NCBI GenBank assembly: GCA_016180285.1
Contig: JACPBO010000007.1
Location: forward strand, 1 to 32,260
DNA from: Candidatus Woesearchaeota archaeon
GTDB lineage: Archaea; Nanobdellota; Nanobdellia; Woesearchaeales; JACPBO01
Direction of reading: 5' to 3'
DNA: 32,260 nt
Shown here: piece after piece, positions 11,749-32,260 of the stretch
Layout: every line of letters starts with the position of its first letter
How positions within the stretch are numbered: position 1 is the first letter of the stretch
Made by a program: the position numbers and the translations under genes
Notes under the pieces: model-generated
What the model saw: the letters and a program-made list of their open reading frames with translations, nothing else
Databases searched by the model: none
What the model was told of the DNA's origin: nothing

Positions 11749-11757
11749 GGTGAAAAA

Positions 11758-13170: not shown

Positions 13171-13194
13171 ACATGAAAATGAGAGGAAAAATTA

Positions 13195-14745
13195 TTGAAG
13201 ATAAAAAATCCAAATAAGATGATCAAAATAATCGACTGCGGAAGCCAATTGACGCAGAACATTGCGAGAAGAATCCGCGAGCTTGGAGTTTATACAGAGA
13301 TTGTGCCTTATCACGCTCCTAAAGAGAATATATTGACTGGTGATCTGGAAGGCATCATTATTTCAGGCGGGCAGTTCAGCGTTTATGACAAAGGATCTCC
13401 TCTTTGCCAAAAAGAAATTCTTAATGCAAATATCCCGATTCTGGGCATATGCTATGGCCAGCAATCAATTGCTCATCTTTTAGAAGGCAGGGTTGCATCA
13501 ACAGAAAAAAGGGAATACGGCAGGACAAGAGTAAGGATTGTGAAAGAAAGCCCTCTTTTCAGAGAGATAGCTGATAAAGAAATTGATGTGTGGATGAGCC
13601 ATGGCGATATTGTGGAAGTTCTACCGCCTGGAATTGAGACTGTCGCATTGTCGCAAAACAACCATATTGCAGCAATGCAGAATTGTGAGAAGGGAATTTA
13701 TGCTGTTCAGTTTCATCCAGAAGTTGACCACACGCAGCATGGAAGAAAGATATTGAATAATTTCATAGACATATGCAATGCGCAAAGAACATGGGACCCT
13801 GAAAAAGAATATGACAGAATTGTTGCATATCTGGAAGAGAAGGTAAAAGGGAAAATCGGAGTCGGCGGTATAAGCGGAGGCGTTGATTCCTCAGCAGCAT
13901 CTGTTTTATTAAGCAAAATTGCTGGAAGGGACTATCATCCAATATTCGTGGATAATGGATTGTTAAGGCTGAATGAAGCTGAGGAAGTAAGAAGAAGCCT
14001 TGAGCCATTTGAGTTAAATATAACGTATGTTGATGCCGGCGAGAGATTTCTTTCAAAATTAAAAGGCGTTGTTGACCCGGATGAAAAAAGAAAAATAATA
14101 GGCAATGAATTCATAGCTGTTTTTGAGGAAGAAGCAGGAAAGATTTCAGGAGTGACTTATCTCTTGCAGGGCACCCTCTATCCAGATGTTATAGAAAGCG
14201 TTCCTATATATGGGTCTTCTTCAAAAATAAAAAGGCACCATAATGTCGGAGGACTGCCAGAAAAAATGGGTTTGAAGGTTGTTGAGCCATTCAATCGCTT
14301 ATTTAAAGACGAGGTAAGAAAGATAGCAGAAGATAAGCTTAAAATGCCAAAAGAAATTGTGTGGCGGCAGCCTTTCCCAGGCCCGGGATTGGCTGTGCGC
14401 ATTATAGGAGAAATTACGCCTGGAAAATTGTCGATAGTGAGAAGAGCTGATGCTATCTTTATTGAAGAGCTGAAGAAAAGAGACCTTTATTACAAAATCA
14501 GCCAGGCATTTGCTGTTTTAACAGATACTAAATCAGTCGGGGTTATGGGAGATGCCGGCACTTATCAGGCCAATATTGGGCTGCGGGCTGTAGTAACAAA
14601 GGATTACATGACTGCGGATATTTATCATTTTGACTGGAACGATCTGCAAGCAATAACCAACAGGATCATTAATGAAGTCAAAGGCATCAATAATGTCGCT
14701 TATTATTTAGGCCAAAAGCCGCCTGCTACAATAGAATTGGAGTGA
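13195..14745 (+). CDS. guaA: GMP synthase (glutamine-hydrolysing), fused form
   Basis: Converts XMP to GMP using ATP and glutamine. This is a single 516-aa chain: an N-terminal class I glutaminase with C86 in ILGICYGQQ and the HPEVDHT His/Glu near 174-176, a central ATP-pyrophosphatase with GISGGVDSSAA (about 225-235), and a C-terminal dimerisation domain ending AYYLGQKPPATIELE. Many archaea encode the two activities as separate genes, so the fused form is bacterial-like and may be acquired. A GAGAGG sequence (13181-13186) favours TTG 13195. ATG 13219 would give the canonical MIKIIDxGSQ start and cannot be excluded. Located inside the IMP cluster although it acts after IMP. Confidence 0.94.
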   Translation: MKIKNPNKMIKIIDCGSQLTQNIARRIRELGVYTEIVPYHAPKENILTGDLEGIIISGGQFSVYDKGSPLCQKEILNANIPILGICYGQQSIAHLLEGRVASTEKREYGRTRVRIVKESPLFREIADKEIDVWMSHGDIVEVLPPGIETVALSQNNHIAAMQNCEKGIYAVQFHPEVDHTQHGRKILNNFIDICNAQRTWDPEKEYDRIVAYLEEKVKGKIGVGGISGGVDSSAASVLLSKIAGRDYHPIFVDNGLLRLNEAEEVRRSLEPFELNITYVDAGERFLSKLKGVVDPDEKRKIIGNEFIAVFEEEAGKISGVTYLLQGTLYPDVIESVPIYGSSSKIKRHHNVGGLPEKMGLKVVEPFNRLFKDEVRKIAEDKLKMPKEIVWRQPFPGPGLAVRIIGEITPGKLSIVRRADAIFIEELKKRDLYYKISQAFAVLTDTKSVGVMGDAGTYQANIGLRAVVTKDYMTADIYHFDWNDLQAITNRIINEVKGINNVAYYLGQKPPATIELE

Positions 14746-14750
14746 TAAAA

Positions 14751-16022
14751 ATGACACAAAAATTGGGCGAAGATTATGAAGAGAGAGAAGGAAAGTCTGT
14801 AGATGCTGCTAAAAGGGCAATTAAGAAGTCAAAAGCAAATTTGTCTTCGAGGCAGATTATAAAAGGGTTTTTTGCAGACCTATATCAGAGTCATGTTTAT
14901 GAGAAGTACTTTTCTTTCTCAACCTGTGACAGTGTAGGCAGCAAATTAATGCTGGCTCATGCATCTGTGCAGTATCCTGAATTATCAGATCTTCTGCAAA
15001 AACAAAGAACAGCGTCAATTGCGGGAAAATTTGATACAGTCGCAATTGATGCTATTGCGATGAATGCTAATGACGCTGCGCCATGGGGAAGCGCATTTTT
15101 TGACCAGCTGACCAAATTTACAGCATGCCAGGCTGCTTATGAAGAAAAAGAGGTTTCAGGAGATGTTGAGCTTGGGCTTATAAAAGCAATGAAACTAGCA
15201 GATGTTTCTGACATTCTTGGGGTGCCTAAAATAAATCTCGGAAAATGTGAAACAGCATCCTTAGACGAAACAATAACAACAGTTGATGAAACTCATGGCT
15301 TTGAGCTGGTTTTTTCAGGTTTCGGGTTTATTAGCAGAAAGGATGTTTTCGAGAAAGGATTCACAGAAGAAGATGGATTCAGGTTTTCTATAAGGCCGAA
15401 GCAAATTATTGTTGGATTTGAGTCATCCGGCCTTCAGTCAAATGGCTATACTGCAGCAAGATTGAGGTCATTGAATGGAAGTTTTGAAAAAAGATACAAG
15501 TACAAAAAAGAGTATACTGGAAGATTTAACCTTGACGATAAAGTCCCTGGCTATGATGGAAAAACTTTTTTAGAAGTGCTGCTGGAGCCGACTATAATCT
15601 ATTCAAGGGCAATGGCGAGGATTGCAAAAGAATTCCCCTATGTCATTGGCGTCAATATAACAGGAAACGGACTGGCTAATTTTAATAGGGCTGGCAAAAA
15701 TGTGAAATATGTTATTGATAATCCAATCACGCCGCAGCCAATATTCAAATTATTTGAAGAAGAAGTGGAAAGGCAATTCAAAGAAGGAAAGATTCCAGAA
15801 AAAGCAAGGTATGATACAAAAAAACTATACCGAAAACTGAATATGGGAATGGGGTTTGCGTGCATCATAAATGGGAATGATGCTGATAAAGCAATTGAAT
15901 TAGCTAAGCAAGAAGGGATCAAAGGCAAGATAATAGGTTATGTGGCTTCCGGCTCTGGCAATTTAAAAACAGCACTCATCCTGCCAGGAAAAAAGCCTGT
16001 TGTTTTTGAAGGTTATATGTGA
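14751..16022 (+). CDS. purM: AIR synthase, PurM-like
   Basis: Phosphoribosylformylglycinamidine cyclo-ligase, step 5 (FGAM to AIR with ATP). The 423-aa chain is longer than the usual 340-350. PurM-fold motifs are present: CDSVGSKLMLA (canonical DGVGTK region), FDTVAIDAIAMNANDAAPWG (D.(V/I)A.D.VAM..ND....G), a GFESSGLQSNGYTAARL motif (canonical SSG.HSNGYS), and GYVASGSG at the end. The extra length sits in the middle-to-late region (about 235-360). The sequence is divergent, but no other AIR synthase is visible and the cluster context is strong. ATG 14751 has GGAGTG about 7 nt upstream; the GTG at 14742 lies in the Shine-Dalgarno region. Confidence 0.85.
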   Translation: MTQKLGEDYEEREGKSVDAAKRAIKKSKANLSSRQIIKGFFADLYQSHVYEKYFSFSTCDSVGSKLMLAHASVQYPELSDLLQKQRTASIAGKFDTVAIDAIAMNANDAAPWGSAFFDQLTKFTACQAAYEEKEVSGDVELGLIKAMKLADVSDILGVPKINLGKCETASLDETITTVDETHGFELVFSGFGFISRKDVFEKGFTEEDGFRFSIRPKQIIVGFESSGLQSNGYTAARLRSLNGSFEKRYKYKKEYTGRFNLDDKVPGYDGKTFLEVLLEPTIIYSRAMARIAKEFPYVIGVNITGNGLANFNRAGKNVKYVIDNPITPQPIFKLFEEEVERQFKEGKIPEKARYDTKKLYRKLNMGMGFACIINGNDADKAIELAKQEGIKGKIIGYVASGSGNLKTALILPGKKPVVFEGYM

Positions 16023-16046
16023 TTGAAGTCAAGGAGGAAAAAAATA

Positions 16047-16910
16047 ATGGCGAGGTTAAATGTTATATTCGGCTCAATAAGCGATGAAGAAAAAGTTTTA
16101 CCTGGTGTTGTAAGAGCAACAAAAAATATCCCGGAATTAGAAGTTGTAGTTCATTATGCTTCTGCCGATAATACGCCTGTTAAAGTTGAAACTATTATGA
16201 GCGCGCTTAGTTCACAGAAAGGGAAAAAGGTTTATATAAGCGGAGCAGGAATGAGCAACGTGCTCACAGGAGTTGTAAGGCGCTATGCAGCATTAAATGA
16301 CCTTGTCATTGGCGTTCCAATAAAAGATAAAGTTACAGACGGGGAAAGCTCATTTTTATCGACAGCTGAGAAGCCTCCTTTGAATGCAGTTTTAACAGTT
16401 GGCCTTGATAACAGTTATGCTGCTTTAAACATAGGGCACAGATTTCTAAATGGGCGATTTAACAATGACGTTGTTGTTTTAGACAATGATGGCATTAACA
16501 AAATCCAGATGGATGAACTAAAAAAATGTCTTTGCGACTTAAAAATAGATTATAAAATATCTGATAAAATTGACAAGGACGATATAGTTATAACTGTCTT
16601 TGGCGATATGCGCGGTTATTTGCATTATGTAGACAATATTTTGAGAAAGGGAAGCGGTGTGCAAATAGGCGTAAGACATCAAAACAATTCCAATGCTTCG
16701 GAGTATAAAGAACGCTTAGGTGAAAAAGAAATAGAAACAACAGGAATTGTAAGCGCAGCATCATACATAAATGCAGTTCAAATCGTTGCGCAACTAACTC
16801 AGCATTGTTATGCTTTAAAAATAATAAAGGAAAAGAAACAAGCAAAAATGGATGATTTGAACAAACATAGAGGATTGCTTGTCATTAATGGAGAAATAAC
16901 TAAATTATGA
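16047..16910 (+). CDS. purE: Divergent PurE-like protein with C-terminal extension
   Basis: Residues about 1-135 align by eye with PurE (N5-CAIR mutase or AIR carboxylase, step 6): GSISDEE for GSxSD, ASADNTP for SAHRTP, YISGAGMSNVLTG for IxGAGGAAHLPG, IGVPIKD for LGVPV, and a TVGLDNSYAALNIGHRFL helix for the AALLAAxIL end. The catalytic histidine of SAHRTP is Asp here, the arginine is Asn, and the histidine of AAHLPG is Val. Residues about 140-287 form an extra domain without clear identity; it has an ATxVSA-like stretch near the end and might be a decayed second PurE repeat. The start has an AAGGAGG Shine-Dalgarno sequence 10 nt upstream. It may use altered chemistry or be regulatory. Confidence 0.68.
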   Translation: MARLNVIFGSISDEEKVLPGVVRATKNIPELEVVVHYASADNTPVKVETIMSALSSQKGKKVYISGAGMSNVLTGVVRRYAALNDLVIGVPIKDKVTDGESSFLSTAEKPPLNAVLTVGLDNSYAALNIGHRFLNGRFNNDVVVLDNDGINKIQMDELKKCLCDLKIDYKISDKIDKDDIVITVFGDMRGYLHYVDNILRKGSGVQIGVRHQNNSNASEYKERLGEKEIETTGIVSAASYINAVQIVAQLTQHCYALKIIKEKKQAKMDDLNKHRGLLVINGEITKL

Positions 16911-16920
16911 GGTGAATGAA

Positions 16921-17661
16921 ATGTCAATAAGAGATCTAAAAGGCAAAGTAGATGATTTAATACCCGTTCAAAATGTGCTTATTAGCGTATACGATAAAAA
17001 TGGCTTGGAAGAGCTGATTCCAGGATTATTAAAAATAAATCCGCATGTAGAATTCATATCCACCGGAGGAACATATACAAAAATCAAAGAAATATTAGGG
17101 AGAAGTGCAACATATAGCCTCAAGGAGGTTGCAGATTATACGGGCTTTCCAGAGATGAAGGGCGGGCTAGTTAAAACACTGCATCCTAAGATTCATGCTG
17201 GCATTTTAGGCGAAAGAAATAACCCGGAGCATCAGAGATACTTGAATGAAGATTTAAATGGAGCCGTCTATATTGATATGGTTGTTGTTAATCTTTATCC
17301 GTTTAAGGAAATGATCAAAAAGATAGAAGCAGGCGAAATTAATAAGCAAACAGGCAAACCTTATAATTTTGAATCTGCAAGGGGGAATATTGATATTGGA
17401 GGGCCAACAATGATTAGAGCAGCTGCAAAGAACTTTCCAGGCTGCGCTGTTGTCTGCGATTCCAGGGATTATGATAACGTATTGAAAACTGTTGGAAATA
17501 ATAATGGCTGCACTTTATTTACACAAAGATTAATACTTGCCGAGAAGGCTTTTAACCAGACATCTGACTATGAAAATGCAATTTCGAAATATTTTTTTGA
17601 AAAAACAGGCAGCGGCGATGACATTATGAAAATAGCAAAAGAGTATGGTATTGAAATGTGA
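16921..17661 (+). CDS. purH: IMP cyclohydrolase (PurH N-terminal domain only)
   Basis: Closes FAICAR to IMP, the last step of the pathway. The 246-aa product is the MGS-like cyclohydrolase half of bacterial PurH. It has VLISVYDKNGLEELIPGL, FISTGGTYTKIKE, VADYTGFPEMKGGLVKTLHPKIHAGIL, VVVNLYPF and NIDIGGPTMIRAAAKNF, all in family order. The AICAR formyltransferase half (roughly another 300 aa) is missing and the next gene is purB, so formylation must come from elsewhere, for example a PurP-type enzyme (inference). ATG 16921 follows GAGGTGA at 6 nt; GTG 16912 lies inside that Shine-Dalgarno sequence. Confidence 0.92.
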   Translation: MSIRDLKGKVDDLIPVQNVLISVYDKNGLEELIPGLLKINPHVEFISTGGTYTKIKEILGRSATYSLKEVADYTGFPEMKGGLVKTLHPKIHAGILGERNNPEHQRYLNEDLNGAVYIDMVVVNLYPFKEMIKKIEAGEINKQTGKPYNFESARGNIDIGGPTMIRAAAKNFPGCAVVCDSRDYDNVLKTVGNNNGCTLFTQRLILAEKAFNQTSDYENAISKYFFEKTGSGDDIMKIAKEYGIEM

Positions 17662-17696
17662 CTAAAATGCAAGAAGGAAAAATAAAGGTGAACGAA

Positions 17697-19106
17697 ATGC
17701 CAGATGAACTAAATCCATTAACTGCAGTCAGCCCGATAGATGGCAGATATCATAGCAAAACTAAAGATTTAACATATTATTTTTCAGAAGCAGCTCTTAT
17801 GAAATACAGGGTGAAAATAGAGTCTAAATATTTATGCGCACTTTCTGATTTTAAAGTCATAAGAAGGCTTAATTTGTCTGAAGAAGAGCTATTGGGAAAT
17901 CTGCCAGATAATTTCAGCTTAGAAGATGCAAAGCAGATAAAAGAAGAAGAAAAAGTTACAAACCATGATGTTAAGGCTGTTGAATATTTCATGAGGAAAA
18001 AATTGAAAGGGACTTCTTTGAATGATGTGGCTGGAATGCTGCACTTTGGGTTGACATCATACGACATAAATGACAATGCAGCTTACATGATGCTAAGGGA
18101 CGGAATAAATAAAGTTTATAGGCCATCGCTTGTAAAGCTTGAGGAAAAGATTCTGAGCTTGGCTGAAGAATATAAACAAATGCCCATGCTTGGAAGAACA
18201 CACGGGCAGCCCGCTTCTCCAACAACCCTTGGAAAAGAATTTTCTGTTTTCGGCAGAAGGCTTGCTTATGAATTAGAAAACTTAGTTAATGCAAGGTATT
18301 CTGGAAAATTAAATGGCGCAGTTGGCAATTATAATGCGCTTCAAGCAGCTTTTCCTAACATAGACTGGATTCAATTTAGCAAAAAATTCTTGGAATCCCT
18401 AGGTCTTTCCCCAAATTTAATAACTACTCAGATAGAGCCGCATGATGCTCTTGTCGGGATATTCCACAATATGATCAGAATCAACAATATCATTCTTGGC
18501 CTAGACCAAGATGTATGGAGATACATAAGCGATGATTATCTGCTGCAAAAGCCAAAAGAGGGTGAAATCGGCAGCTCTACAATGCCGCATAAGATAAACC
18601 CAATTGACTTTGAGAACAGCGAAGGAAACATTATCGCAGCCAATGGCCTTTTGAGCGCATTTGCATCAAAGCTGCAAGTTTCAAGGCTGCAGCGCGACTT
18701 GAGCGATTCAACAATTACTAGGAACATAGGCTCTGCTGTTGCATACTGCCTTTTGGCTTCAGATAGCGCTTTTAAGGGGCTTGGAAAGATATACGCAAAT
18801 AAGGAGTTGATGCTGAAAGAATTGCAAGGCCATATTGAAATACTGGCAGAGCCAATACAAACAATTCTCAGGAAAGAGAATGTGCCAGAAGCGTATGAAA
18901 AACTAAAAGAATTGACGAGAGGCAAGGAAGTGAGCACGAACGACATTGCTTTGTTTATAGATGATATTGGCGTTTCGCAAGAAGCAAAACAAAGGCTTCG
19001 CGCATTAAAGCCAGAGAACTACATTGGCTTGGCAGTTGAGCTGACAGAATTGGCGATAAAAGATTCGAGAAGTATTTTATCACATATAGGTCAACCAAAG
19101 AAATAA
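17697..19106 (+). CDS. purB: Adenylosuccinate lyase
   Basis: Removes fumarate from SAICAR (to AICAR) and from adenylosuccinate (to AMP), so it acts twice. The 469-aa chain belongs to the fumarase/aspartase superfamily and looks like the E. coli type: N-terminal LTAVSPIDGRYHSKT, a long helical core with HGLTS-like HFGLTSYDIND, GRTHGQPASPTT with the catalytic histidine, and the signature SSTMPHKINPIDFENSEGN containing the catalytic serine loop. I chose ATG 17697, which has AGGTGA 5 nt upstream and gives the canonical N-terminus. Starts at 17658 and 17667 add unrelated residues. The E. coli-like rather than archaeal/Bacillus-like subtype hints at lateral acquisition. Confidence 0.94.
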   Translation: MPDELNPLTAVSPIDGRYHSKTKDLTYYFSEAALMKYRVKIESKYLCALSDFKVIRRLNLSEEELLGNLPDNFSLEDAKQIKEEEKVTNHDVKAVEYFMRKKLKGTSLNDVAGMLHFGLTSYDINDNAAYMMLRDGINKVYRPSLVKLEEKILSLAEEYKQMPMLGRTHGQPASPTTLGKEFSVFGRRLAYELENLVNARYSGKLNGAVGNYNALQAAFPNIDWIQFSKKFLESLGLSPNLITTQIEPHDALVGIFHNMIRINNIILGLDQDVWRYISDDYLLQKPKEGEIGSSTMPHKINPIDFENSEGNIIAANGLLSAFASKLQVSRLQRDLSDSTITRNIGSAVAYCLLASDSAFKGLGKIYANKELMLKELQGHIEILAEPIQTILRKENVPEAYEKLKELTRGKEVSTNDIALFIDDIGVSQEAKQRLRALKPENYIGLAVELTELAIKDSRSILSHIGQPKK

Positions 19107-19124
19107 AATTCAGGAGGGAGAAAA

Positions 19125-20186
19125 ATGCCGATTGATAAAAAACTAATAACGCGAGATATTATGAGCAACACTTTGAAGAGGGAAATCTATCCTGAAATTG
19201 ATGTCAGAACCCCTCCCAAAATGGGAAAGGTAAGAACTGTCTATGATGTTGCAGTTAATCAATTGCTTATGATATCCAGCGACAATCTCTCAACTCATGA
19301 TGTGGTGCATGAAAGGCAGGTATACGCAAAGGGCGAAAACCTTGATGCAATCTCATCATATTTTTTTGAAAAAACAAAGCACATTATCCGAAATCATTTT
19401 ATTGAGAACATTGCGCCTAACACGTGGCGTGTGCTAAAAGCAAAGCCAATATTGGTGGAAATGGTTTTCAGAAAATATCTGACAGGAAGCGGCTGGAAAG
19501 CTTATCAAGAAGCGAATGGTCCTGAAAAAGGGATGGAGTTTTGCGGTGTAAACTTAAGGCCAGGCTACAGAAAGAATGAGAAATTGGATGAGGTAATATT
19601 CACGCCAACAGCAAAAGGCCAGGTTAAAGATTTTCTAATTCCTGAGTTTAATGGCTTAAATCCAGAAGCAAATGACCCTAAACTTACAGCCGAGATTATA
19701 AAAAGGAATTATGAAGCATTTGGCTTGAGAAGGCCGGAAGACCTTAATCGCATAATGGAGATAGGGTTTGCGCTGTTTGATTTCATACACTCTTATCTGG
19801 AAACCAAAAGATATTTGCCAGCAGATACAAAATGGGAATTTGGATACCTGCCTGGAGGGGATATCGGATTGATAGATGAGCATGTAACTCCAGATTCTTC
19901 AAGATTTTGGGAGAAAGACGAGTACAAGTTCAACCAAGAAAAAAATGAATTCACTATTGTACAGGCTGATAAGCAGCATTACAGAGATCATGTAGAAAGC
20001 CTTGGCTTGCATAAAGATGAAAAAAAGCTTGCAAAATATTGGATGCCTGATGATGTTATGGCAGAGGGGATAGTGAAGTACTGCAATATAAGGGAAGCAA
20101 TAACAGGGACGTTGCCTGAGATAACAACAACACCCAGGAGAAAGATCATATTGGAAGCATTAGCAGAAGAAGGTTATTTAAAATAG
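19125..20186 (+). CDS. purC: SAICAR synthase
   Basis: Phosphoribosylaminoimidazole-succinocarboxamide synthase joins aspartate to CAIR with ATP (step 7). The 353-aa length is above the compact bacterial form (about 240) and near the longer type. MGKVRTVYDV with LLMISSDNLSTHD is the ATP-binding start (canonical GKvRdlY...SDriSafD). VEMVFRKYLTGSGWKAYQE, TPTAKGQVKD, GDIGLIDEHVTPDSSRFW and the aspartate/metal region follow in the usual order. A CAGGAGGG Shine-Dalgarno sequence (19111-19118) precedes ATG 19125. Cytoplasmic. Confidence 0.92.
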   Translation: MPIDKKLITRDIMSNTLKREIYPEIDVRTPPKMGKVRTVYDVAVNQLLMISSDNLSTHDVVHERQVYAKGENLDAISSYFFEKTKHIIRNHFIENIAPNTWRVLKAKPILVEMVFRKYLTGSGWKAYQEANGPEKGMEFCGVNLRPGYRKNEKLDEVIFTPTAKGQVKDFLIPEFNGLNPEANDPKLTAEIIKRNYEAFGLRRPEDLNRIMEIGFALFDFIHSYLETKRYLPADTKWEFGYLPGGDIGLIDEHVTPDSSRFWEKDEYKFNQEKNEFTIVQADKQHYRDHVESLGLHKDEKKLAKYWMPDDVMAEGIVKYCNIREAITGTLPEITTTPRRKIILEALAEEGYLK

Positions 20187-20196
20187 GGGGTAAAAA

Positions 20197-21495
20197 ATGG
20201 CAAACGTACTCGTTATCGGATCAGGCGGAAGAGAGCATGCTTTAGTTTGGAAATTAAGGAAGAGCGATTATGTTCAAAATTTATATTGCGCTCCAGGCAA
20301 TGGCGGGACTGCGCTTAATGCAACAAATGTGCCAATAACAATAAACGGATCTGATTTTGGCGGAATCGATAATTTAGTCAGAGAGAAGAAAATTGACCTG
20401 ACTGTTGTAGGCCCGGAAGTTCACTTGGTCAATGGCATTGTTGATTATTACAAGGACAATGGACTGATTGATGAAGAACATTTTATTTTTGGACCGACAA
20501 AGTCTGCCGCTAGATTGGAAGGAAGCAAAGCTTTTGCAAAGGACTTTATGTTTAGGCACAGCATACCTACTGCCGGCTTTAAGATACTATATGACTCCGA
20601 TGCAGCCAAAGCTTATCTTCGCAGCCAGGAAATGCCTATTGTTATCAAGGCATCAGGCCTTGCTTCTGGAAAAGGCAGCATTGTATGCAAGACATTAGAG
20701 GAAGCAGATAATTCAATTGAAAGGATTATGATTAAAAAAGAGTTCAAAGATTCTGGCGACGAAGTTGTGATAGAGGAATTCATGGAAGGCCAGGAAGCAA
20801 GCATACTTGCTTTAACAGATGGAAATGAAATAAGGGTTTTGGCTTCATCTCAGGACCACAAGCAGATTTATGATGGAGATGAAGGACCTAATACAGGCGG
20901 CATGGGGGCTTATGCGCCTGCTCCAATTGCCACAGACGAGATAATGGCAAAAGTTCATGAAAGAATACTGTTGCCGACAATAAACGGCATGAAGGAGGAA
21001 AATAACCCGTTCACCGGCTGCTTGTACGTTGGCTTGATGATCAAAGACAAGGAGCCAAGAGTTGTCGAGTTCAATGCAAGATTTGGCGACCCTGAAGCGC
21101 AGCCTGTTCTGTCTTTGCTGGAAAATGACTTGTACCTGCTGCTTAAGTCATGCGTTAAAGGCACATTAGGCACCCATCAAATAAGAAACAAGAAAGGAGC
21201 AGCATGCTGCGTTGTAATGGTTTCTGGCGGCTATCCAGGAAAATATGAAGAGGGCAAGGAAATTTTTGGCCTGGAAGATGCTGCAAATATCGAAAATGTT
21301 TATGTTTTCCATGCAGGAACAAAAAAAGAAGGCGGTAAAATATTGACAAATGGCGGCAGAGTGTTGGGAGTAACCGGGGTTGGAAAAAACATTGAGGATT
21401 CAATTAAAATCGCATATTCAGGTGTTGAAAAGATCAGATGGGAGAAGGAATATCATAGGACAGATATCGGAGCAAAGGCTTTGAACAGAAAATGA
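20197..21495 (+). CDS. purD: Glycinamide ribonucleotide synthetase
   Basis: Phosphoribosylamine-glycine ligase, step 2 of the pathway, an ATP-grasp enzyme. The 432-aa length is normal. It shows VLVIGSGGREHALVWKL at the N-terminus, a GPEVHLVNGIVD loop, KASGLASGKGSIVC in the ATP-grasp, EEFMEGQEASILALTDG, QDHKQIYDGDEGPNTGGMGAYAPAP, and EFNARFGDPEAQPVL with the metal ligands. A TAGGGGG Shine-Dalgarno sequence precedes ATG 20197. The stop overlaps the TPR gene by 4 nt (ATGA), so translation is probably coupled. Confidence 0.95.
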   Translation: MANVLVIGSGGREHALVWKLRKSDYVQNLYCAPGNGGTALNATNVPITINGSDFGGIDNLVREKKIDLTVVGPEVHLVNGIVDYYKDNGLIDEEHFIFGPTKSAARLEGSKAFAKDFMFRHSIPTAGFKILYDSDAAKAYLRSQEMPIVIKASGLASGKGSIVCKTLEEADNSIERIMIKKEFKDSGDEVVIEEFMEGQEASILALTDGNEIRVLASSQDHKQIYDGDEGPNTGGMGAYAPAPIATDEIMAKVHERILLPTINGMKEENNPFTGCLYVGLMIKDKEPRVVEFNARFGDPEAQPVLSLLENDLYLLLKSCVKGTLGTHQIRNKKGAACCVVMVSGGYPGKYEEGKEIFGLEDAANIENVYVFHAGTKKEGGKILTNGGRVLGVTGVGKNIEDSIKIAYSGVEKIRWEKEYHRTDIGAKALNRK

Positions 21496-25175: not shown

Positions 25176-25715
25176 ATGATATATGAGCCTCAAGAAGATT
25201 CCTTATTGCTGCAAGAATATGTGAAAAAACATGCTTTTGGCATGGTCTTAGATGTAGGCGCTGGTTCAGGGATACAAGCGATAGAGGCAGCCAAAAAGAA
25301 AGTTGTGAAGAAAGTTATTGCTGCGGATATCCAAAAGGATGTTGTTGATTATTTAAAAAGCAAAATTAAAAACAAGAAGATAATAGCCAAGCAAAGCGAT
25401 CTTTTTTCAAATATTAAAAACATGAAATTTGACACGATTATTTTCAATCCGCCTTACCTTCCTTCTGATCTGAAAGTCAAAGACATAACCATAGAAGGGG
25501 GCAAAAAAGGATATGAGGTTATTGAAAGGTTTTTGAGCAAAGCAAATAATTATCTTAAAAAAGACGGCATTATTTTGATGGTTTTTTCATCGCTGACAAA
25601 GCCGAGAATGATCAATAAACTGATAAAGAAAAATAAGTTAAAATACAGATTATTGGGCAAAAAGCGCATATTCTTTGAAGAGATGATGGTTTATCTTGTT
25701 GAAAGAGAAAAATGA
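25176..25715 (+). CDS. HemK2/Mtq2-type protein glutamine methyltransferase
   Basis: A 179-aa class I SAM-dependent methyltransferase. It opens with IYEPQEDS, typical of the archaeal/eukaryotic HemK2 (Mtq2) group, has the SAM motif VLDVGAGSG at 24-32, and the NPPY catalytic motif at 91-94 that binds a planar amide or amine. Relatives methylate the GGQ glutamine of release factor aRF1/eRF1, usually with Trm112; N6-adenine methylation is another NPPY activity. The stop overlaps the kinase gene by 4 nt. The size fits Mtq2. Confidence 0.82.
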   Translation: MIYEPQEDSLLLQEYVKKHAFGMVLDVGAGSGIQAIEAAKKKVVKKVIAADIQKDVVDYLKSKIKNKKIIAKQSDLFSNIKNMKFDTIIFNPPYLPSDLKVKDITIEGGKKGYEVIERFLSKANNYLKKDGIILMVFSSLTKPRMINKLIKKNKLKYRLLGKKRIFFEEMMVYLVEREK

Positions 25716-26299
25716 AATTCTACAAAAAAGGCAAGCGCGGATTGGTTTATTTCTCTAAATATAAGAACAAAAAAATAATCATCAAAATAAAGAATCCTGA
25801 AAGCAGGGCTGAAAACAGGATAGAGAATGAGTTCAGATTTTTAAAAATATTGAATAAAATGAACATTGGTCCAAATGCCCTATTCTTTAAAAATGGAAAG
25901 TTGGGGATGGAGTTTGTTGATGGTGTTTATTTCTTGGATTTTATTAAAAAAGAGAACAATAAAAATGCAATATTGAAAATAATAAAAACACTCTATGATC
26001 AATTATATCAATTAGACGAGCTGAAAATAAATAAGGAAGAGATGTCGCATCCGCACAAGCACATTATAGTGGCTGAGCATAATAAACCTGTCCTGATTGA
26101 CTTCGAGCGCGCACATTATGCTGCAAAGCCAGCCAATGTCACGCAGTTCTCGGTTTTTCTGGTCTCGGATTTTGTTTCAAAACTTTTAAAAGAGAAAAGT
26201 ATAAAAATAAACAGGCAAGACATGATTGAAAGCTGCAAAATTTACAAAAATAAAGCGGGCTACAACAACTTTTTGATGATCATAGGGCAAATCAGATGA
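25712..26299 (+). CDS. Small atypical protein kinase-like protein
   Basis: A 195-aa protein of the kinase fold, in the style of archaeal Bud32/RIO-like small kinases. A GKRGLVY glycine loop (7-13), lysine in KIIIKIKN (about K25), a helix glutamate in NRIENEF, PHKHIIV (about 114-120) in place of the HxD loop, and LIDFERA (129-134) as the DFG-like metal site are visible. The catalytic HxD aspartate is not obvious, so activity is uncertain. It overlaps both neighbours by 4 nt. Confidence 0.68.
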   Translation: MKFYKKGKRGLVYFSKYKNKKIIIKIKNPESRAENRIENEFRFLKILNKMNIGPNALFFKNGKLGMEFVDGVYFLDFIKKENNKNAILKIIKTLYDQLYQLDELKINKEEMSHPHKHIIVAEHNKPVLIDFERAHYAAKPANVTQFSVFLVSDFVSKLLKEKSIKINRQDMIESCKIYKNKAGYNNFLMIIGQIR

Positions 26300-26664
26300 C
26301 AAAAAAGAGGATTGCAAAGAAAAGCTTCGAATGCGAGAACTGCGGGCAGTGCTGCAGGCTTCTTTTTAAGCCGAATAAGTCAGACATCGTGAAAATAGAG
26401 GCTGCAGGCCATGCTGATTTTCTAATGAACCATCCATTCAGGAAAGATCAGGAAGGCTATATGAAGCTGATCAATGGAGACTGTTTTTTCCTTGTAAAAA
26501 ATACCGACGGAACAAGCTCCTGCAGAATATATGATGCAAGGCCAAAGGCGTGCAGGGATTATCCTTTTTTCAGCAAAAAAACAGCAGAAGACTGCAAGCC
26601 AATGCACCATCTTGAGGAAGTCAAGGTCAGATATGCAAAAAATTTATATATTCCAAAGATATAG
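26296..26664 (+). CDS. CxxCxxCC (YkgJ-type) cysteine cluster protein
   Basis: A 122-aa protein with CENCGQCC at 13-20 followed by a NGDCFFL motif and CRIYDARPKACRDYPFF. These are the hallmarks of the YkgJ/Fe-S or zinc cysteine-cluster family, function unknown. It overlaps the kinase gene (ATGA) and belongs to the same transcript as the methyltransferase. Confidence 0.85.
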   Translation: MTKKRIAKKSFECENCGQCCRLLFKPNKSDIVKIEAAGHADFLMNHPFRKDQEGYMKLINGDCFFLVKNTDGTSSCRIYDARPKACRDYPFFSKKTAEDCKPMHHLEEVKVRYAKNLYIPKI

Positions 26665-26672
26665 CTGTTAAA

Positions 26673-26840
26673 ATGATCGAAATATTCTCAAAAGAGGGCA
26701 TTGTAATCGCTGTTTCCCTGTTTGTTTCCTTCTTCATCTTCCACTGGCTGTTTAACAAGCCCGATAACTCGTTTGACAAGGAAGTTGAAGAGATCCTGAA
26801 ATCCGACAAATACAAGGTCAAGGGAAGGTTTGAGAGCTAG
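26673..26840 (+). CDS. 55-aa single-span membrane protein
   Basis: A short ORF starting 8 nt after the cysteine-cluster gene. It has one hydrophobic helix (GIVIAVSLFVSFFIFHWLF, about 9-27) followed by a charged cytoplasmic-type tail (DKEVEEILKSDKYKVKGRF). Close spacing and codon composition support a real gene, but the family is unknown. Confidence 0.5.
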   Translation: MIEIFSKEGIVIAVSLFVSFFIFHWLFNKPDNSFDKEVEEILKSDKYKVKGRFES

Positions 26841-26866
26841 CATATAAAAGAAAAGTCAGTTAAAAA
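26841..26866 (-). terminator. T-rich 3' end of the minus-strand operon
   Basis: Just after the radical SAM stop the minus strand carries TTTTTAACTGAC and CTTTTCTTTT. T runs are the known archaeal termination signal. No hairpin is evident. Confidence 0.3.
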
Positions 26867-27664
26867 TTATCTTCTATAATTCTCTTTTAATTTTCCGATT
26901 ACGATATCTCTTAGAAATTCACAATCTGATGCCAAAAGCCCATTATCTGTTGGCTCAACATATTTTTTTGTTCCAATAAATGGGCAAGCAGAATTTTCTG
27001 TTAATGGCTTGCAGTCATATTCTAAGCTGTTTTCCACATTTAATCCTTTGACTTCACAAGCATTTAAAAAAGCAACAGCCAATGTTTTGTCCATCCCACT
27101 TAAACCATCAACATTTTTTCCTCTGCCAACTCTAAATACAGGTGTAACTCTGACACCAACTCCAATAGCTGTTGCATAATCTACAACTTTCTCTATTTCA
27201 TCTTTATTTTCACCATAAACCGGCATTGATAGGTGTAATCTAACATCTTCTTGCAGCCATCTTTCTATATTTTCCTTGACTCTATTGACAGTTATACGAT
27301 TGGATGGTTTTGTTATGCTTTTCCATACTTCTTCATCAATAGCTGGCAAGCTTACTTGAAGCTCGCATTTTTGATTTTTTAGTATTTTTGATAAATCTTG
27401 CCTGTACATTGTTCCATTTGTTGATATTAGGATCGTCTCAACATTCAAATCAGATATAGCATATTCCAGCATAGCATTTAATTGAGAATTCATAAATGGC
27501 TCTCCTCCGCTAATATCAATAGATTTTGGTTTATCGCTGTCAATAAGAGTTATAAATTGCTCTAGTGATAAACTCTCTTTTCTTCCAGGATGGCCGTCAG
27601 CATAGCAAAACTTACACTCTAAATTGCAATACATATTAATAGCTAAAACTAGCTGATCAGTCAT
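26867..27664 (-). CDS. Radical SAM protein with SPASM/twitch-like tail
   Basis: A 265-aa radical SAM enzyme. C13, C17 and C20 (MYCNLECKFC) bind the SAM-cleaving 4Fe-4S cluster; SGGEP (52-56) is the SAM-binding motif; ILISTNGT is the following strand. The C-terminal region has further cysteines in YDCKPLTENSACPF and SDCEFLRDIVIGKL. This resembles the SPASM/twitch pattern of auxiliary-cluster enzymes that often modify peptides, such as anaerobic sulfatase-maturating enzymes or RiPP maturases. ATG 27664 overlaps the upstream CFI-box gene by 8 nt. It is the last gene of the minus operon. The substrate is unknown; the neighbouring protein is a natural candidate (inference). Long upstream extension rejected. 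Confidence 0.85.
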   Translation of the reverse strand: MTDQLVLAINMYCNLECKFCYADGHPGRKESLSLEQFITLIDSDKPKSIDISGGEPFMNSQLNAMLEYAISDLNVETILISTNGTMYRQDLSKILKNQKCELQVSLPAIDEEVWKSITKPSNRITVNRVKENIERWLQEDVRLHLSMPVYGENKDEIEKVVDYATAIGVGVRVTPVFRVGRGKNVDGLSGMDKTLAVAFLNACEVKGLNVENSLEYDCKPLTENSACPFIGTKKYVEPTDNGLLASDCEFLRDIVIGKLKENYRR

Positions 27665-29000
27665 TATGCACCGCTTCAATTTTCTTATGATTATGTGATT
27701 TGTATGATTCAACTACAATGTCCAAAGTTTCTTTAATGACCTTTTTAACATTATTTTTCATAGGGCTGTTTTCTACAACTCTTGCTGCAAATTCCCCAGT
27801 TCCCGAGTAGTAGAAATGAACACATGCTGCACCTAAAGGATTCTTTAATAAAACATCATCCCTTATTTCTCTAAGAACCACTACACTAGGGTGATTTATG
27901 TTGCCATAAACTGCTGTGGCTATAAAACAACTTTTAGTACTTTTGTTAAGAATATAGTTCATTGTAAGATCAAGTTCATCACTTGATTCATTAACTTGCT
28001 TAATAGTTTCTTCTGCATTCTTTAACACATTCACATTGAATTTCAATGCATCATTCTTATTTTTTAAATCTTCTAAAGAATATGAGAACCTTCGATGAAT
28101 GGTTGAATCTGTATCCTTTATGTCAACAGGAAATTCTGCGCCATAGCTTCTAATGGCAGAACAAACGGCTTTTATAGATGTTGCATATTCAGCTCCGCCT
28201 TTTTTTAAGTCGCCATAAAGTCTTAATTGTTCATTATAAGATGACTTAGGATTGTTCGGCAATGTGTATAGAGAACTAGCTGTGCTTATTAATCTGCCTT
28301 GCAATGGTCTGATGTAAGAAATAAAGACCTCATTTAGCTTGCCTACAAGCCAATTCATGCCTTCCTTTTTTGTAATAGAAAATGCTGTTGGGTCTTTTTC
28401 GTTGTTAGCAAACATTAAAAATTGCTTATAGCTTTCATACAATGCAGTTACATTTTCTTCTAATTTTGAGTCTGTTGGCGGTGTTTTTAATATTAAGCCG
28501 TATCTGTCATCCATGAATTTTTTGCTGAAATTTATCCATCCTTCAATATCATTTGAAGTTTTAAATTTATTCAGTTGGATTTCTATTTCGTTCTGGCTTA
28601 ATCCTGAAAGGTTCTTTTTTTCATCATAAGTTTGTGATTGTTCCTTCTGTGTTAATAGCCCCTCTTTTTGTAATTTCTCCTTACGGACTTTTATTTTTGA
28701 TTCTAAGTCAGTTATTGCAGTTGCTGCTTCAGGGTATTGTTTCCAGCCATCTTCATGCTCAAGCCTTTGTATTAAGTTTTCTGCTTTTTCAAACTCGCTA
28801 TTGATTATTCCTTTTTGTATTTCTTTTATTGTTTTATCATATCTTGTTTTCTGGCGCGCTTCAGCAGAATAATTTTGTCTGAAAAAATTTACACAGCCCC
28901 TGGAAGCAGAATAGCCTAAAATTAAAGAAGCTAAAATTAATACAGCAGATGCTCCTTTTCTGAGGAATATGCCCGGTGACATTATATTCATTCTTACCAT
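27657..29000 (-). CDS. Membrane-anchored protein with C-terminal CFI-box domain
   Basis: A 447-aa protein. An N-terminal hydrophobic helix (about 17-31, after basic residues) would anchor it, with the bulk likely outside. Residues about 45-340 are mostly helical, charged, probably coiled-coil, and unrecognised. The C-terminal domain begins CFIATAVYGN (358-367) and continues VVVLREIRDDVLLKNPLGAACVHFYY, FAARVVENSP and a final hydrophobic helix. This closely follows what I recall as the CFI-box-CTERM type domain (CFIATAAYG...LReFRD..L..n..G..fv..YY...P). ATG 29000 has GGAGG 10 nt upstream and overlaps the upstream gene by a few nt. Confidence 0.75.
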   Translation of the reverse strand: MVRMNIMSPGIFLRKGASAVLILASLILGYSASRGCVNFFRQNYSAEARQKTRYDKTIKEIQKGIINSEFEKAENLIQRLEHEDGWKQYPEAATAITDLESKIKVRKEKLQKEGLLTQKEQSQTYDEKKNLSGLSQNEIEIQLNKFKTSNDIEGWINFSKKFMDDRYGLILKTPPTDSKLEENVTALYESYKQFLMFANNEKDPTAFSITKKEGMNWLVGKLNEVFISYIRPLQGRLISTASSLYTLPNNPKSSYNEQLRLYGDLKKGGAEYATSIKAVCSAIRSYGAEFPVDIKDTDSTIHRRFSYSLEDLKNKNDALKFNVNVLKNAEETIKQVNESSDELDLTMNYILNKSTKSCFIATAVYGNINHPSVVVLREIRDDVLLKNPLGAACVHFYYSGTGEFAARVVENSPMKNNVKKVIKETLDIVVESYKSHNHKKIEAVHND

Positions 29001-29005
29001 TGTAA

Positions 29006-30703
29006 TTAAGCCTCCGCTTCGTATAGCGGCTGTTGGTTTTTCCATAAAGCAATGCGAGCGTATAATGGTTGAACAACTTTTAAGCTATCTTCAACTTTTT
29101 CACTAGCTTGCGCCTCACTTATTTTAGGAATGCTTGTAGCTAGTTCTTCAAGCTCCTTGCCAGAAAAGTCATTTTTGTGTATTATTGTCAGCAAACCCTT
29201 AATATAGTTATTTGACAAGCTTCCATCATTTAAAAAAGTGGATAAAAGTGTAACGTGCATATCATTAATCTGCCTTGTTGACGCAAAATATAAGACCCCT
29301 TGTTCTTTGAGGTTATTATATATGACTTTTTTTGCATTAACATTGTCAAGCTCTCTTTCTAAAGTCGCTCCAAAAAGCTTGTAAGCCTCTATTGTTGGGC
29401 TAATGCTTTCCCAAGCAGCTTTTGACGGATTAAAATTTGCAATATGTGAGGCCGCATCAGATATGCCGCAGATAGTTAAATCACGCCCCTTTTCTTTAGT
29501 TTCTCTATTGATGCTCACATTATATCTCCATATCTCCCTGTTTTCATCAGGGCCTCTGATCTTTTTGTAAGCAGAAACGCCTAAAGCTGCAACTGGCTCT
29601 AGGATAACTGCGCCACCAAATACATCTTTATCCTCTATATTTTCATTTTTGAACATTTGCCTCATTCTTATTATGCCATCAATCGCAAAATACGGTCCAA
29701 CTAAACCAAACATTTTCCATTGCGTAAGCCCAGCTATTGCTGTTATGGCGCCACCGATTATCTCAACTACACTATAAATAGGAAGTGCATACTCTGCGTA
29801 TTTGCTACTGGGTTTTATGGAAAATTCTCTTTTTATAGCCCTTGGCAAAAAGGGATAAACAGGGTAAAGTGCATATTGCGCTGCTTTTGAAAGTCTGCTA
29901 CCGGCTTCTGAAAATATGCCTTTTTGATCTTCAATATTTATTCTTTCATACTGTAAGCCTTCAATTGATCCTGACAGCTTTTTCATATTATTTTCATTTG
30001 ATGATAATATGATATTATCCCATCCTTCGCGTATCGCTTTTTCTAGCACACTTTTAACATCCTTCCCTCTGTTATTAATCACCAATACGCCGCCTTCATC
30101 TTCTATTTTAAATGAATGGCCCAAGATGGATGCCAAAACAGTTTCTATTGTTTCGCCAAATTTTTCTCCAAATCCCTTTATAGGCGTTGTTTTGCCCTTA
30201 AAAGGCTCTATGCCGTCCCATATTTTTTGTTGTTGCGAAATTGGCAAAGATTTTGATAAGAATAATTCCAGAGCATGTAAAAGATGCACTTTATCCTCTT
30301 CCTGCGCTTCTAAGCCTTGATAAGCAAAAGCCAGATTTGTTAGAGTTTTGTCTAATTCTGTGCCTTTCCAAAAGAAGTTTGTTTCATAGCTTATGTTGTT
30401 CCCATGGTTTAACAATTTAACAGCTTCGTCTACTGTTTTCTTGCGATCTGAAAGTTCATCCATTCGGTATAATGATTGTAAAACATTTCCTAGCCTTAAA
30501 GCCTGATTCAGGTATTCTTGACTTGCTCTTTTTGCATTTTCATAATTTTCGTTTGCTTTTTGCCTTGATTTTTTAGTTACTCTTGACTCTAAAAGCTGTG
30601 TTTTATAGTTATTTCTAAGTTCTCTTAGACCATTAAGCAAGGATTTTACATCACGAAACATATCCTGTTTCGTTATAGCGCCTTCAATAACCTCAACGCT
30701 CAT
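29006..30703 (-). CDS. Unknown 565-aa protein with central hydrophobic segment
   Basis: I do not recognise the family. Residues 1-100 are charged and helical. A region near 195-255 (HSFKIEDEGGVLVINNRG, then AIREGWDNIILSS) is alpha/beta and faintly recalls the A-x-x-x-GW-x-x-I pattern of LPD7-type domains in large mobile-element proteins; this is weak. Residues about 306-346 contain one or two hydrophobic helices (LPIYSVVEIIGGAITAIAGL and the following FGLVGPYFAIDGI). The C-terminal 200 residues are mixed, with no catalytic motif visible. ATG 30703 follows GGTGAGAGG. It overlaps the upstream gene by 11 nt. Confidence 0.65.
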   Translation of the reverse strand: MSVEVIEGAITKQDMFRDVKSLLNGLRELRNNYKTQLLESRVTKKSRQKANENYENAKRASQEYLNQALRLGNVLQSLYRMDELSDRKKTVDEAVKLLNHGNNISYETNFFWKGTELDKTLTNLAFAYQGLEAQEEDKVHLLHALELFLSKSLPISQQQKIWDGIEPFKGKTTPIKGFGEKFGETIETVLASILGHSFKIEDEGGVLVINNRGKDVKSVLEKAIREGWDNIILSSNENNMKKLSGSIEGLQYERINIEDQKGIFSEAGSRLSKAAQYALYPVYPFLPRAIKREFSIKPSSKYAEYALPIYSVVEIIGGAITAIAGLTQWKMFGLVGPYFAIDGIIRMRQMFKNENIEDKDVFGGAVILEPVAALGVSAYKKIRGPDENREIWRYNVSINRETKEKGRDLTICGISDAASHIANFNPSKAAWESISPTIEAYKLFGATLERELDNVNAKKVIYNNLKEQGVLYFASTRQINDMHVTLLSTFLNDGSLSNNYIKGLLTIIHKNDFSGKELEELATSIPKISEAQASEKVEDSLKVVQPLYARIALWKNQQPLYEAEA

Positions 30704-31595
30704 ACCTCTCACCACCCTTTGCAGGCGTTTCTATAGGCAAGGTTTTTTCAGGGCTTACCTTTGCCACTTCTAAGTTTATTTGTGTGGCTAGAAGATTTCT
30801 GTAATTAGTTATAGAATGAACTCCAGCGCCTTTTGTGTATCCTTTGCTTTTGGCTATCTCAACTGCTTCATCCAACATATTCTGCGTTTCTGGAGTAAAA
30901 TATAGGTCTATTGGAACTTGTCTTCTGGCTTTTTCATCAACAACTTTATCTCGCCATTCAAAATGGCTTCCAACATAGCACCTTATTCTTTTATTGCGGC
31001 TGACAGTCATTTCCCTATCAACTGCAATTGTCTTATGAATCAAAACTTTTGATAAAGGAGTATCTTTTAACTCTTGAGCAGTTTTGCCTGTTATTTTTGC
31101 AATGACGAAATCAACCCGTTTTTTTATTTCAGGGTCTTTTAAACCATATTCTGCAAGCTTTCGATCATCTAGCTCGCCACTGCTAACAATATTATTTATA
31201 AGTTGAGTTTCATAGCTATGCTTTACTTGCTGGCCTGCATCAGCCAATGTCAGCATTATTTTTGAATCGCTTTTTGCGCTGCCAAGCCTTGCTTCCAAGC
31301 TTATTACATCTTGATGCGTTTCTAATAATTCGTCTAAAGCATCAGAGCCAGAAGTCTCACCAGGCATTCTCATAAAATAATAAACCTTTTTTGGCAGAAT
31401 AAGATAACTTTTACTCTCTACATTTTCAATTTTTATCTGCAATAAGCTGTAGTTTTTGTCATCTATTAATCCAGCACTACTTAATTTATTTATGGTTTTT
31501 TCATCAGCTATGTAAACCTTTTCATTTGGCCCGGTGGGCAATTCTATTTCTTCCAGATTTTCCCGCTTAATGACCTCAATTAGTTTTTCCTTCAT
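30693..31595 (-). CDS. Unknown 300-aa protein
   Basis: No family recognised. It begins with a short helical/acidic segment, then beta strands (LLQIKIENVESKSYLILPKKVYYF broken by turns), a long helical middle (about 85-200), and a basic patch IRCYVGSHFEWRDK followed by QVPIDLYFTPETQNML. There is no signal peptide or membrane helix. The start overlaps the stop of the AAA+ gene (ATGA) and its 3' end overlaps the next gene by 11 nt, so the three are translationally coupled. Confidence 0.65.
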   Translation of the reverse strand: MKEKLIEVIKRENLEEIELPTGPNEKVYIADEKTINKLSSAGLIDDKNYSLLQIKIENVESKSYLILPKKVYYFMRMPGETSGSDALDELLETHQDVISLEARLGSAKSDSKIMLTLADAGQQVKHSYETQLINNIVSSGELDDRKLAEYGLKDPEIKKRVDFVIAKITGKTAQELKDTPLSKVLIHKTIAVDREMTVSRNKRIRCYVGSHFEWRDKVVDEKARRQVPIDLYFTPETQNMLDEAVEIAKSKGYTKGAGVHSITNYRNLLATQINLEVAKVSPEKTLPIETPAKGGERYER

Positions 31596-32260
31596 TTTTT
31601 AGCACCTTCTAAAGCCTGTTTTAATGATTGCAGTTCAGTGTATGTATCTATGCTATCTCTGTCCATAACTGTTTTAAATCCCTTCTTGATAGCCTCTAAT
31701 TCGTCTTGTGTTCTGCGCTTATATGATGAGCCTATTGACTTATAGTGTTCGGTTGTGGCTCCGGCTCCAATAATTTCTCTCATATGCTTGCAAGCTTGCG
31801 CTATTTCTCCAGGCAACAAAGTTGGGTTGACCCTGACAACTTCTTCAGTGTCTATTTTGGAAGGTCCGCCATATTCGCTTATATACTGTTGCCATAACAA
31901 TTTTTGCTCCTCTTTAGAAGGAATATCGAAGTATATGAAGTGGTCAAATAATGTTTTTATGCTTGAGGGTATTTGCACATATGGCTCTGAAACAGTTGCT
32001 ACTACTACAGCTTCCCCATTATGCTCCTTCTTCGCATCAAGCATTACACTCCTGAGCACTGTGTTGAAAGATTCTTGCCACCCTTCTGCCTTATAGCCAA
32101 CTAAACCATTGATGTTGGGTATAAATAACAATGCATTGCTGTAAACAGCCCTAGTTATAACTTGCCGTATTCTTTCTTCTGTTGTTCCTACAACGCCTCT
32201 GAAAATCTGATCGGGGGTTACTTCTACAAAAGGTTTTTCCAGAGTGCCAGCTATTGCTTC
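31592..32260 (-). CDS. AAA+ module protein with degenerate catalytic motifs (partial)
   Basis: The C-terminal 222 residues of a larger protein whose 5' end lies beyond 32260. The frame stays open to the window edge, so the TTG at 32131 is not its start. The order matches an FtsH/Cdc48-like AAA+ core. PFVEVTPDQIF and GVVGTTEERIRQVITRA correspond to the pore-loop region. ALLFIPNINGLVG stands where Walker B hhhFIDEIDAL should be. VVVATVSEP replaces the sensor-1 ATN strand, and IPSSIKTLFDHFIYFDIP replaces the R-finger L..RFD strand. A helical lid with PGEIAQACKHMREI follows. The acidic Walker B pair, the sensor Asn and the arginine finger all appear lost, so it is probably an inactive or partner subunit. 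Walker A is outside the window. Confidence 0.72.
   Translation of the reverse strand, partial: EAIAGTLEKPFVEVTPDQIFRGVVGTTEERIRQVITRAVYSNALLFIPNINGLVGYKAEGWQESFNTVLRSVMLDAKKEHNGEAVVVATVSEPYVQIPSSIKTLFDHFIYFDIPSKEEQKLLWQQYISEYGGPSKIDTEEVVRVNPTLLPGEIAQACKHMREIIGAGATTEHYKSIGSSYKRRTQDELEAIKKGFKTVMDRDSIDTYTELQSLKQALEGAKK

Follow-up and report, generated by a model that had tools for sequence, protein, structure and literature searches.

The window analysed here, a stretch of 32,260 nucleotides (nt), is the entire contig JACPBO010000007.1 (C7) of a Candidatus Woesearchaeota assembly (G000, 1.33 Mb in 51 contigs), and on the minus strand of its right end (26867-32260) lies an operon encoding an AAA ATPase, members of two protein families named here p300 and p560, an N-terminally anchored protein and a radical S-adenosylmethionine (SAM) enzyme. 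This operon is a rare, movable cassette common to distantly related Woesearchaeota; its existence and its conservation are almost certain. The original prediction, made from the window alone, was that of an undescribed membrane-associated gene set with its own radical SAM enzyme; it is supported by the recurrence of the set in other genomes and by the lack of a match to any known system.

The five minus-strand open reading frames (ORFs), with their overlapping or near-touching junctions, were all borne out at their predicted coordinates on re-reading. The first gene (31592..32260) encodes the C-terminal (D2) half of the AAA ATPase and, since the window is an entire contig, is cut by the contig edge; it was assigned by a PF00004 match (E 6e-7), alignment with five complete two-domain relatives and synteny with another contig of the same assembly, C38. 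A 4-nt overlap (31592-31595) joins it to the gene of a 300-amino acid (aa) protein with a CxxGSH motif (p300, 30693..31595; profile E 1.8e-97, alignment with orthologues), which in turn overlaps by 11 nt (30693-30703) that of a 565-aa protein (p560, 29006..30703; profile E 7.7e-137, alignment of the family). After a gap of 5 nt (29001-29005) follows, in what is called here the transmembrane (TM) position, the gene of an N-terminally anchored helical protein with a C-terminal CFI-box domain (27657..29000; NF041770), and the last gene, sharing 8 nt with it (27657-27664), encodes the 265-aa radical SAM enzyme (26867..27664; PF04055 E 2.3e-20).

The cassette was opened by a p560 search of 371 genomes of the phylum, which gave two distant matches in ORFs of equal length; matches of the phylum search in G054 and G364 were judged to be due to chance. 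The neighbourhoods of both distant matches carry the same set: a radical SAM enzyme, a two-domain AAA ATPase, a protein of 300 aa, one of 540-560 aa, and one or several anchored proteins. The p300 alignment, run as a profile against 84,980 species genomes, yielded six loci: L178 in a Nanoarchaeota record (the G143 locus), L179, L181 (G405), L182 and L183 (G004) in Woesearchaeota records, and L180 (VMFF01000070.1), a 3.3-kb cassette fragment filed under a Doudnabacteria metagenome-assembled genome. The latter is either a misbinned contig or a recent transfer, misbinning being likely because its proteins are 84-91% identical to those of L181. The five other loci share the order radical SAM - AAA - p300 - p560 - anchored protein, most of the junctions being overlaps of 4 nt, and L181 is the shortest of the complete ones; thus, the conserved neighbourhood which the original prediction called for in related genomes is present in five long loci. 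Between one and six to seven p560 copies are found per cassette (two in L179, and in L183, at 10996-20295, six to seven strongly diverged tandem copies, one of them apparently split by a frameshift), while the anchored-protein copies seen range from none to five (five in L178, one of only 88 aa).

The window is a divergent member of this group. Its radical SAM gene is the last and not the first, and its proteins share 24-32% identity (p300, AAA and radical SAM; 24-29% for p300 against five cassette orthologues) or 17-20% (p560) with those of the relatives. A single-sequence search for the window p560 in 59 relatives found none, missing two that were later recovered by profiles, and single-sequence searches in relatives gave radical SAM matches of about 32% identity at best; the same kind of search with the window proteins in viral contigs, plasmids and phages gave no relatives. 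Occurrence is patchy: p300 is present in 4 of the 371 sampled phylum genomes, and strong p560 profile matches in 6 of 353 genomes of the order (the window genome, G004, G143, G479, G002 and G162). Weak p560 matches in five more genomes (E 1e-5 to 1e-6) were discarded, as they cover the hydrophobic stretch only.

Between L180 and L181, the ratio of nonsynonymous to synonymous substitutions (dN/dS) is 0.084 for AAA, 0.122 for p300 and 0.123 for p560, so that the cassette genes are under purifying selection (0.08-0.12). Over six loci, the identity matrices of these three proteins correlate at 0.93-0.96 (permutation p<=0.003), an agreement which implies that the three have travelled together; the radical SAM matrix correlates less (0.83-0.90, p 0.03-0.08). 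In each of the six cassettes whose flanks are readable, the window among them, the radical SAM-AAA-p300 unit is accompanied by p560, and three genomes (G479, G002 and G162) carry p560 followed by an anchored protein with no radical SAM, AAA or p300 gene nearby; p300 was not found anywhere in these three, G479 being only 56% complete. From this, the core would be the pair of p560 and the anchored protein, to which the unit of radical SAM, AAA and p300 was added, and the cassette thus looks modular, with a membrane pair plus a three-gene unit.

The insertion site could be located by comparison with a genus-mate, G001, which lacks the cassette between conserved flanks. By blastn, its contig C9 matches the window at 88.6% over 25709-26856 and shows no homology beyond, the match stopping 10 bp past the end of the operon; the left boundary of the inserted cassette is therefore placed at 26856..26867. 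After about 1.2 kb, the G001 flank resumes in sequence matching the tail of C38 (L060). At the site of the cassette, G001 holds instead an ORF for a lipoprotein-like protein of 373 aa (L197 17056-18177), and the presence of a different gene there makes the site a variable one. The tail of C38 encodes on its plus strand an AAA D1 half of 295 aa (L060 13601-14485), which was placed by synteny with G001 and by alignment, ends in the D1-D2 linker and runs off the contig end. Synteny makes it the missing half of the window AAA, with a predicted gap of some 15-20 codons that would include the D2 P-loop; a contig-end search for a P-loop crossing the edge missed this partner because the break falls just before that motif. 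Upstream of the D1 half lies an ORF of 47 aa (L060 13454-13597), whose homologue in L178 (2141-2284) shares 4 nt with the start of the radical SAM gene, both devoid of cysteine and of Pfam matches. Completed with C38, the window cassette reads [47-aa ORF] - AAA - p300 - p565 - anchored/CFI - radical SAM.

The joined AAA protein changes one claim made for it. An AAA module with lost catalytic residues had been proposed; the loss in the window is real, with FIPNIN in place of FIDEID at Walker B and no arginine finger, but it is confined to D2, since the D1 on C38 is intact (Walker A GPPGTGKT, Walker B FIDEID, ATNK and a finger-like arginine motif, MRPERL). Complete relatives have 518-548 aa, and the L181 member shows two PF00004 stretches, indicating tandem classic AAA domains. 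D1 keeps both Walker motifs in the window genome; of the five complete relatives, four keep them as well, whereas L182 reads NE instead of DE in Walker B. The D2 Walker B reads DE, DK, DG or PN across the cassettes. Tandem classic domains are also found in CDC48, Rix7 and Vps4, and among PDB sequences the D2 half is best matched by Rix7 and Vps4; unlike these, the cassette AAA has a variable to lost D2 Walker B and lacks an N-terminal recruitment domain, its P-loop starting about 65 residues in. The CDC48 model TIGR01243, scored on the window D2 half alone, gave 20.3 bits against a cut-off of 802.65.

All six cassette radical SAM enzymes contain CxxxCxxC and three conserved C-terminal cysteines. 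Their C-terminal parts hold three to four cysteines each, and in L178 and L183 the core three and the C-terminal three are the only ones. Five relatives have the motif CX9-15GX4C (CX13GX4C at residues 233-252 in L178), and the window enzyme a version one residue longer, CX14GX5C. The enzyme had been called SPASM-like: with three conserved C-terminal cysteines it does not have the full seven-cysteine SPASM domain and is better called twitch-like, and from the known biology of the family the three residues may be read as a MoaA-like auxiliary cluster. The core and the putative C-terminal three-cysteine cluster are shared with MoaA and other twitch enzymes, and the best NCBIfam scores are to MoaA; it differs from MoaA in its score (72.7 bits against a cut-off of 325) and in the spacing of its C-terminal cysteines (CX14CX18C in L178), and no molybdopterin genes were noticed beside the cassette radical SAM genes.

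The anchored proteins have in common a short N-terminal signature, e.g. LNVSNKKTFARKL, before a weak hydrophobic segment, and each has a net charge of +3 to +7 in its first 22 residues, which suggests that they may face outward; their C-terminal parts differ between copies and genomes. The window member, predicted to be a membrane-anchored CFI-box protein, does have both an N-terminal anchor segment, which matches, as its position does, the TM genes of L178, L179, L181, L182, L210 and L212, and a CFI box (residues 358-423, E 5.8e-17), as CFI-box-CTERM proteins do. Nevertheless, the CFI-box/radical SAM pair proposed for a search of conserved gene order is not the conserved core, since no CFI box was found in the anchored proteins of L178-L183, and the CFI-box neighbourhoods of 15 other genomes of the order share no genes with the cassette. 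Both genus-mates have a further CFI-box protein (176-185 aa), which stands alone, is unrelated to the cassette and lies in what is apparently the same neighbourhood: in the window genome at G000:C36 41790-41996 (L056 14761-15291), with neighbours unrelated to the cassette genes, and in G001 at C13 127434-127640 (L057 9390-9947).

The p300 and p560 families, said at the outset to be of no known kind, have no counterpart in Pfam, NCBIfam, PHROGs or PADLOC; in the Pfam scan, none of the p300 members had any family above cut-off. In the alignment of seven p300 members, C202, G205, S206, H207, H182 and H256 (L178 numbering) are invariant; the structural model is of low confidence over most of residues 185-229, covering most of this invariant stretch. 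For a p560 family member, AlphaFold2 (AF2; mean confidence, pLDDT, of 74) gave a helical domain at the N-terminus and an alpha/beta one at the C-terminus, with a hydrophobic centre. The hydrophobic helices attributed to the 565-aa protein are present as segments, of only moderate hydrophobicity (Kyte-Doolittle 1.75 and 1.61 over 19 residues). Foldseek comparison of the p300 and p560 models, which are of moderate confidence and derive from shallow alignments, found nothing in the PDB at E<=1e-3, and the same was true of the p560 model against viral structures.

Some cassettes are flanked or interrupted by other ORFs. L179 has an extra one of 166 aa between AAA and p300 (3393-3893), with one clear hydrophobic segment, a 4-nt overlap with AAA and no Pfam family. 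In L182, the same coupled run continues after the cassette with a 158-aa lipoprotein-like and a 305-aa ORF (8315-9709 and 10378-11322), and a LAGLIDADG endonuclease gene lies just past it (PF03161 E 4e-40). In G162 (L212 13000-17544), a p560-anchored-anchored run is followed by three large ORFs of 786, 266 and 470 aa, which may be another accessory unit.

Taken as a whole, the mechanism we propose, to which a probability of roughly 0.4 is given, is that of a machine which, powered by ATP, acts on a complex in the membrane and is served by a dedicated radical SAM enzyme. The AAA protein would form a double-ring hexamer driven by D1, leaving D2 free to decay, and would spend ATP on the assembly, remodelling or extraction of membrane complexes whose subunits are p560 and the anchored proteins; because it lacks an N-terminal recruitment domain, p300 and/or p560 may serve as its adaptor. 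One of the partners would be modified by the radical SAM enzyme, and the leading candidate for this is the invariant CxxGSH loop of p300; as in MoaA, the three-cysteine auxiliary cluster of the enzyme could bind the substrate. The original prediction already included a stoichiometric complex and a modifying enzyme, and we infer both here. The cassette occurs patchily and is inserted at a site that varies, which suggests a role in conflict, defence or surface interaction rather than in housekeeping; an accessory or conflict function is suspected. In its most specific form, namely a new archaeal machine, spread as an accessory, in which the radical SAM enzyme modifies p300 as a subunit of an AAA double-ring motor on a two-family membrane complex, the proposal is rather doubtful.

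Several points weigh against this mechanism. What the sequences show is the gene content and order, the two modules, the state of D1 and D2, the selection and the accessory distribution; every functional step, including the physical contacts and the modification, would follow from these, and no fold match backs any reading of p300 or p560. Several p560 members fall below the Kyte-Doolittle threshold, which bears on their membrane insertion, and L183 combines its many p560 copies with no anchored-protein gene in the visible stretch. Furthermore, the window radical SAM gene stands at the opposite end of the operon from that of the other cassettes, and the radical SAM tree, poorly resolved and with long branches, neither groups the window enzyme with the cassette enzymes nor rejects their grouping (approximately unbiased test, p 0.26).

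Among the alternatives, antiviral defence, with a viperin-like radical SAM enzyme, an IetA-like AAA and the membrane proteins as sensor and effector, is unlikely, though less so than the others. It would account for the patchy distribution, for the presence of the cassette, at a variable site, in one genus-mate and not in the other, and for the multiple copies of p560 and the anchored proteins, and PADLOC does match the radical SAM enzyme to prokaryotic viperins (pVip, NF038283, E 2e-18) through the radical SAM core and the L181 AAA to IetA (E 5e-31). These matches are at superfamily level, and fail the curated cut-offs (viperin 45.2 against 180 bits; IetA, scored on the D2 half, 19 against 510 bits, reflecting general similarity among classic AAA ATPases). 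The cassette enzyme has other partners and carries three extra conserved cysteines, whereas viperins are not known to have an auxiliary cluster; its AAA has two AAA domains, and the subtilisin-like protease partner of IetAS is missing, no cassette protein matching an S8 peptidase. The neighbouring genes, as read from their ORFs, do not resemble a defence island either. A surface apparatus, in which outward-facing anchored proteins would stand on a p560 membrane base assembled by AAA, for instance for host contact of an epibiotic archaeon, fits the positive N-termini and the variable C-terminal parts of the anchored proteins; we consider it improbable, because the majority of relatives in the order do not carry the cassette and there is no homology to pilins, pilus ATPases or secretion parts. 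Indeed, scans of the cassette proteins with Pfam, PHROGs and NCBIfam found no secretion ATPase, pilin or mating-pair protein, so that the assignment to a conjugation, pilus or other known system on which the original prediction would have foundered was not obtained from the library scans.

It is also quite improbable that the cassette is biosynthetic, the radical SAM enzyme maturing a peptide or small molecule that the membrane proteins would export and the AAA protein process. Twitch-type radical SAM enzymes are often maturases, and the best NCBIfam scores of the cassette enzyme include, besides MoaA, maturases of ribosomally synthesized and post-translationally modified peptides; against this, no short cysteine-rich precursor ORF was found around the cassettes, the sole recurring small ORF being the cysteine-free one of 47 aa shared by L178 and L060, and no exporter or peptidase family occurs among the cassette proteins. 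Finally, the divergence of the window version and the loss of Walker B in its D2 could be taken to mean that unrelated genes have come to lie side by side by chance where the sequence is decaying. This is scarcely credible: the recurrence of the gene order in five other loci of distant genomes, together with the low dN/dS, argues against chance, and the conserved neighbourhood already refutes it.

Elsewhere in the window (11758-13170), a PilB/GspE-like ATPase ORF, read by eye from its translation, lies inside an apparent run of purine-biosynthesis genes.

Woesearchaeota have small genomes, are mostly uncultured, and much of their gene content is unexplained. No literature was found that treats radical SAM enzymes and AAA ATPases together in connection with Woesearchaeota or twitch domains, and broader queries gave titles on other subjects, in a search whose coverage was incomplete and which an earlier description may have escaped. 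The cassette is a compact conserved gene set in which a radical SAM enzyme and an AAA motor are tied to two families with no library or fold match. Since it is self-contained, it could be moved into a laboratory host, and one unexplained system of the Woesearchaeota would thus become testable.

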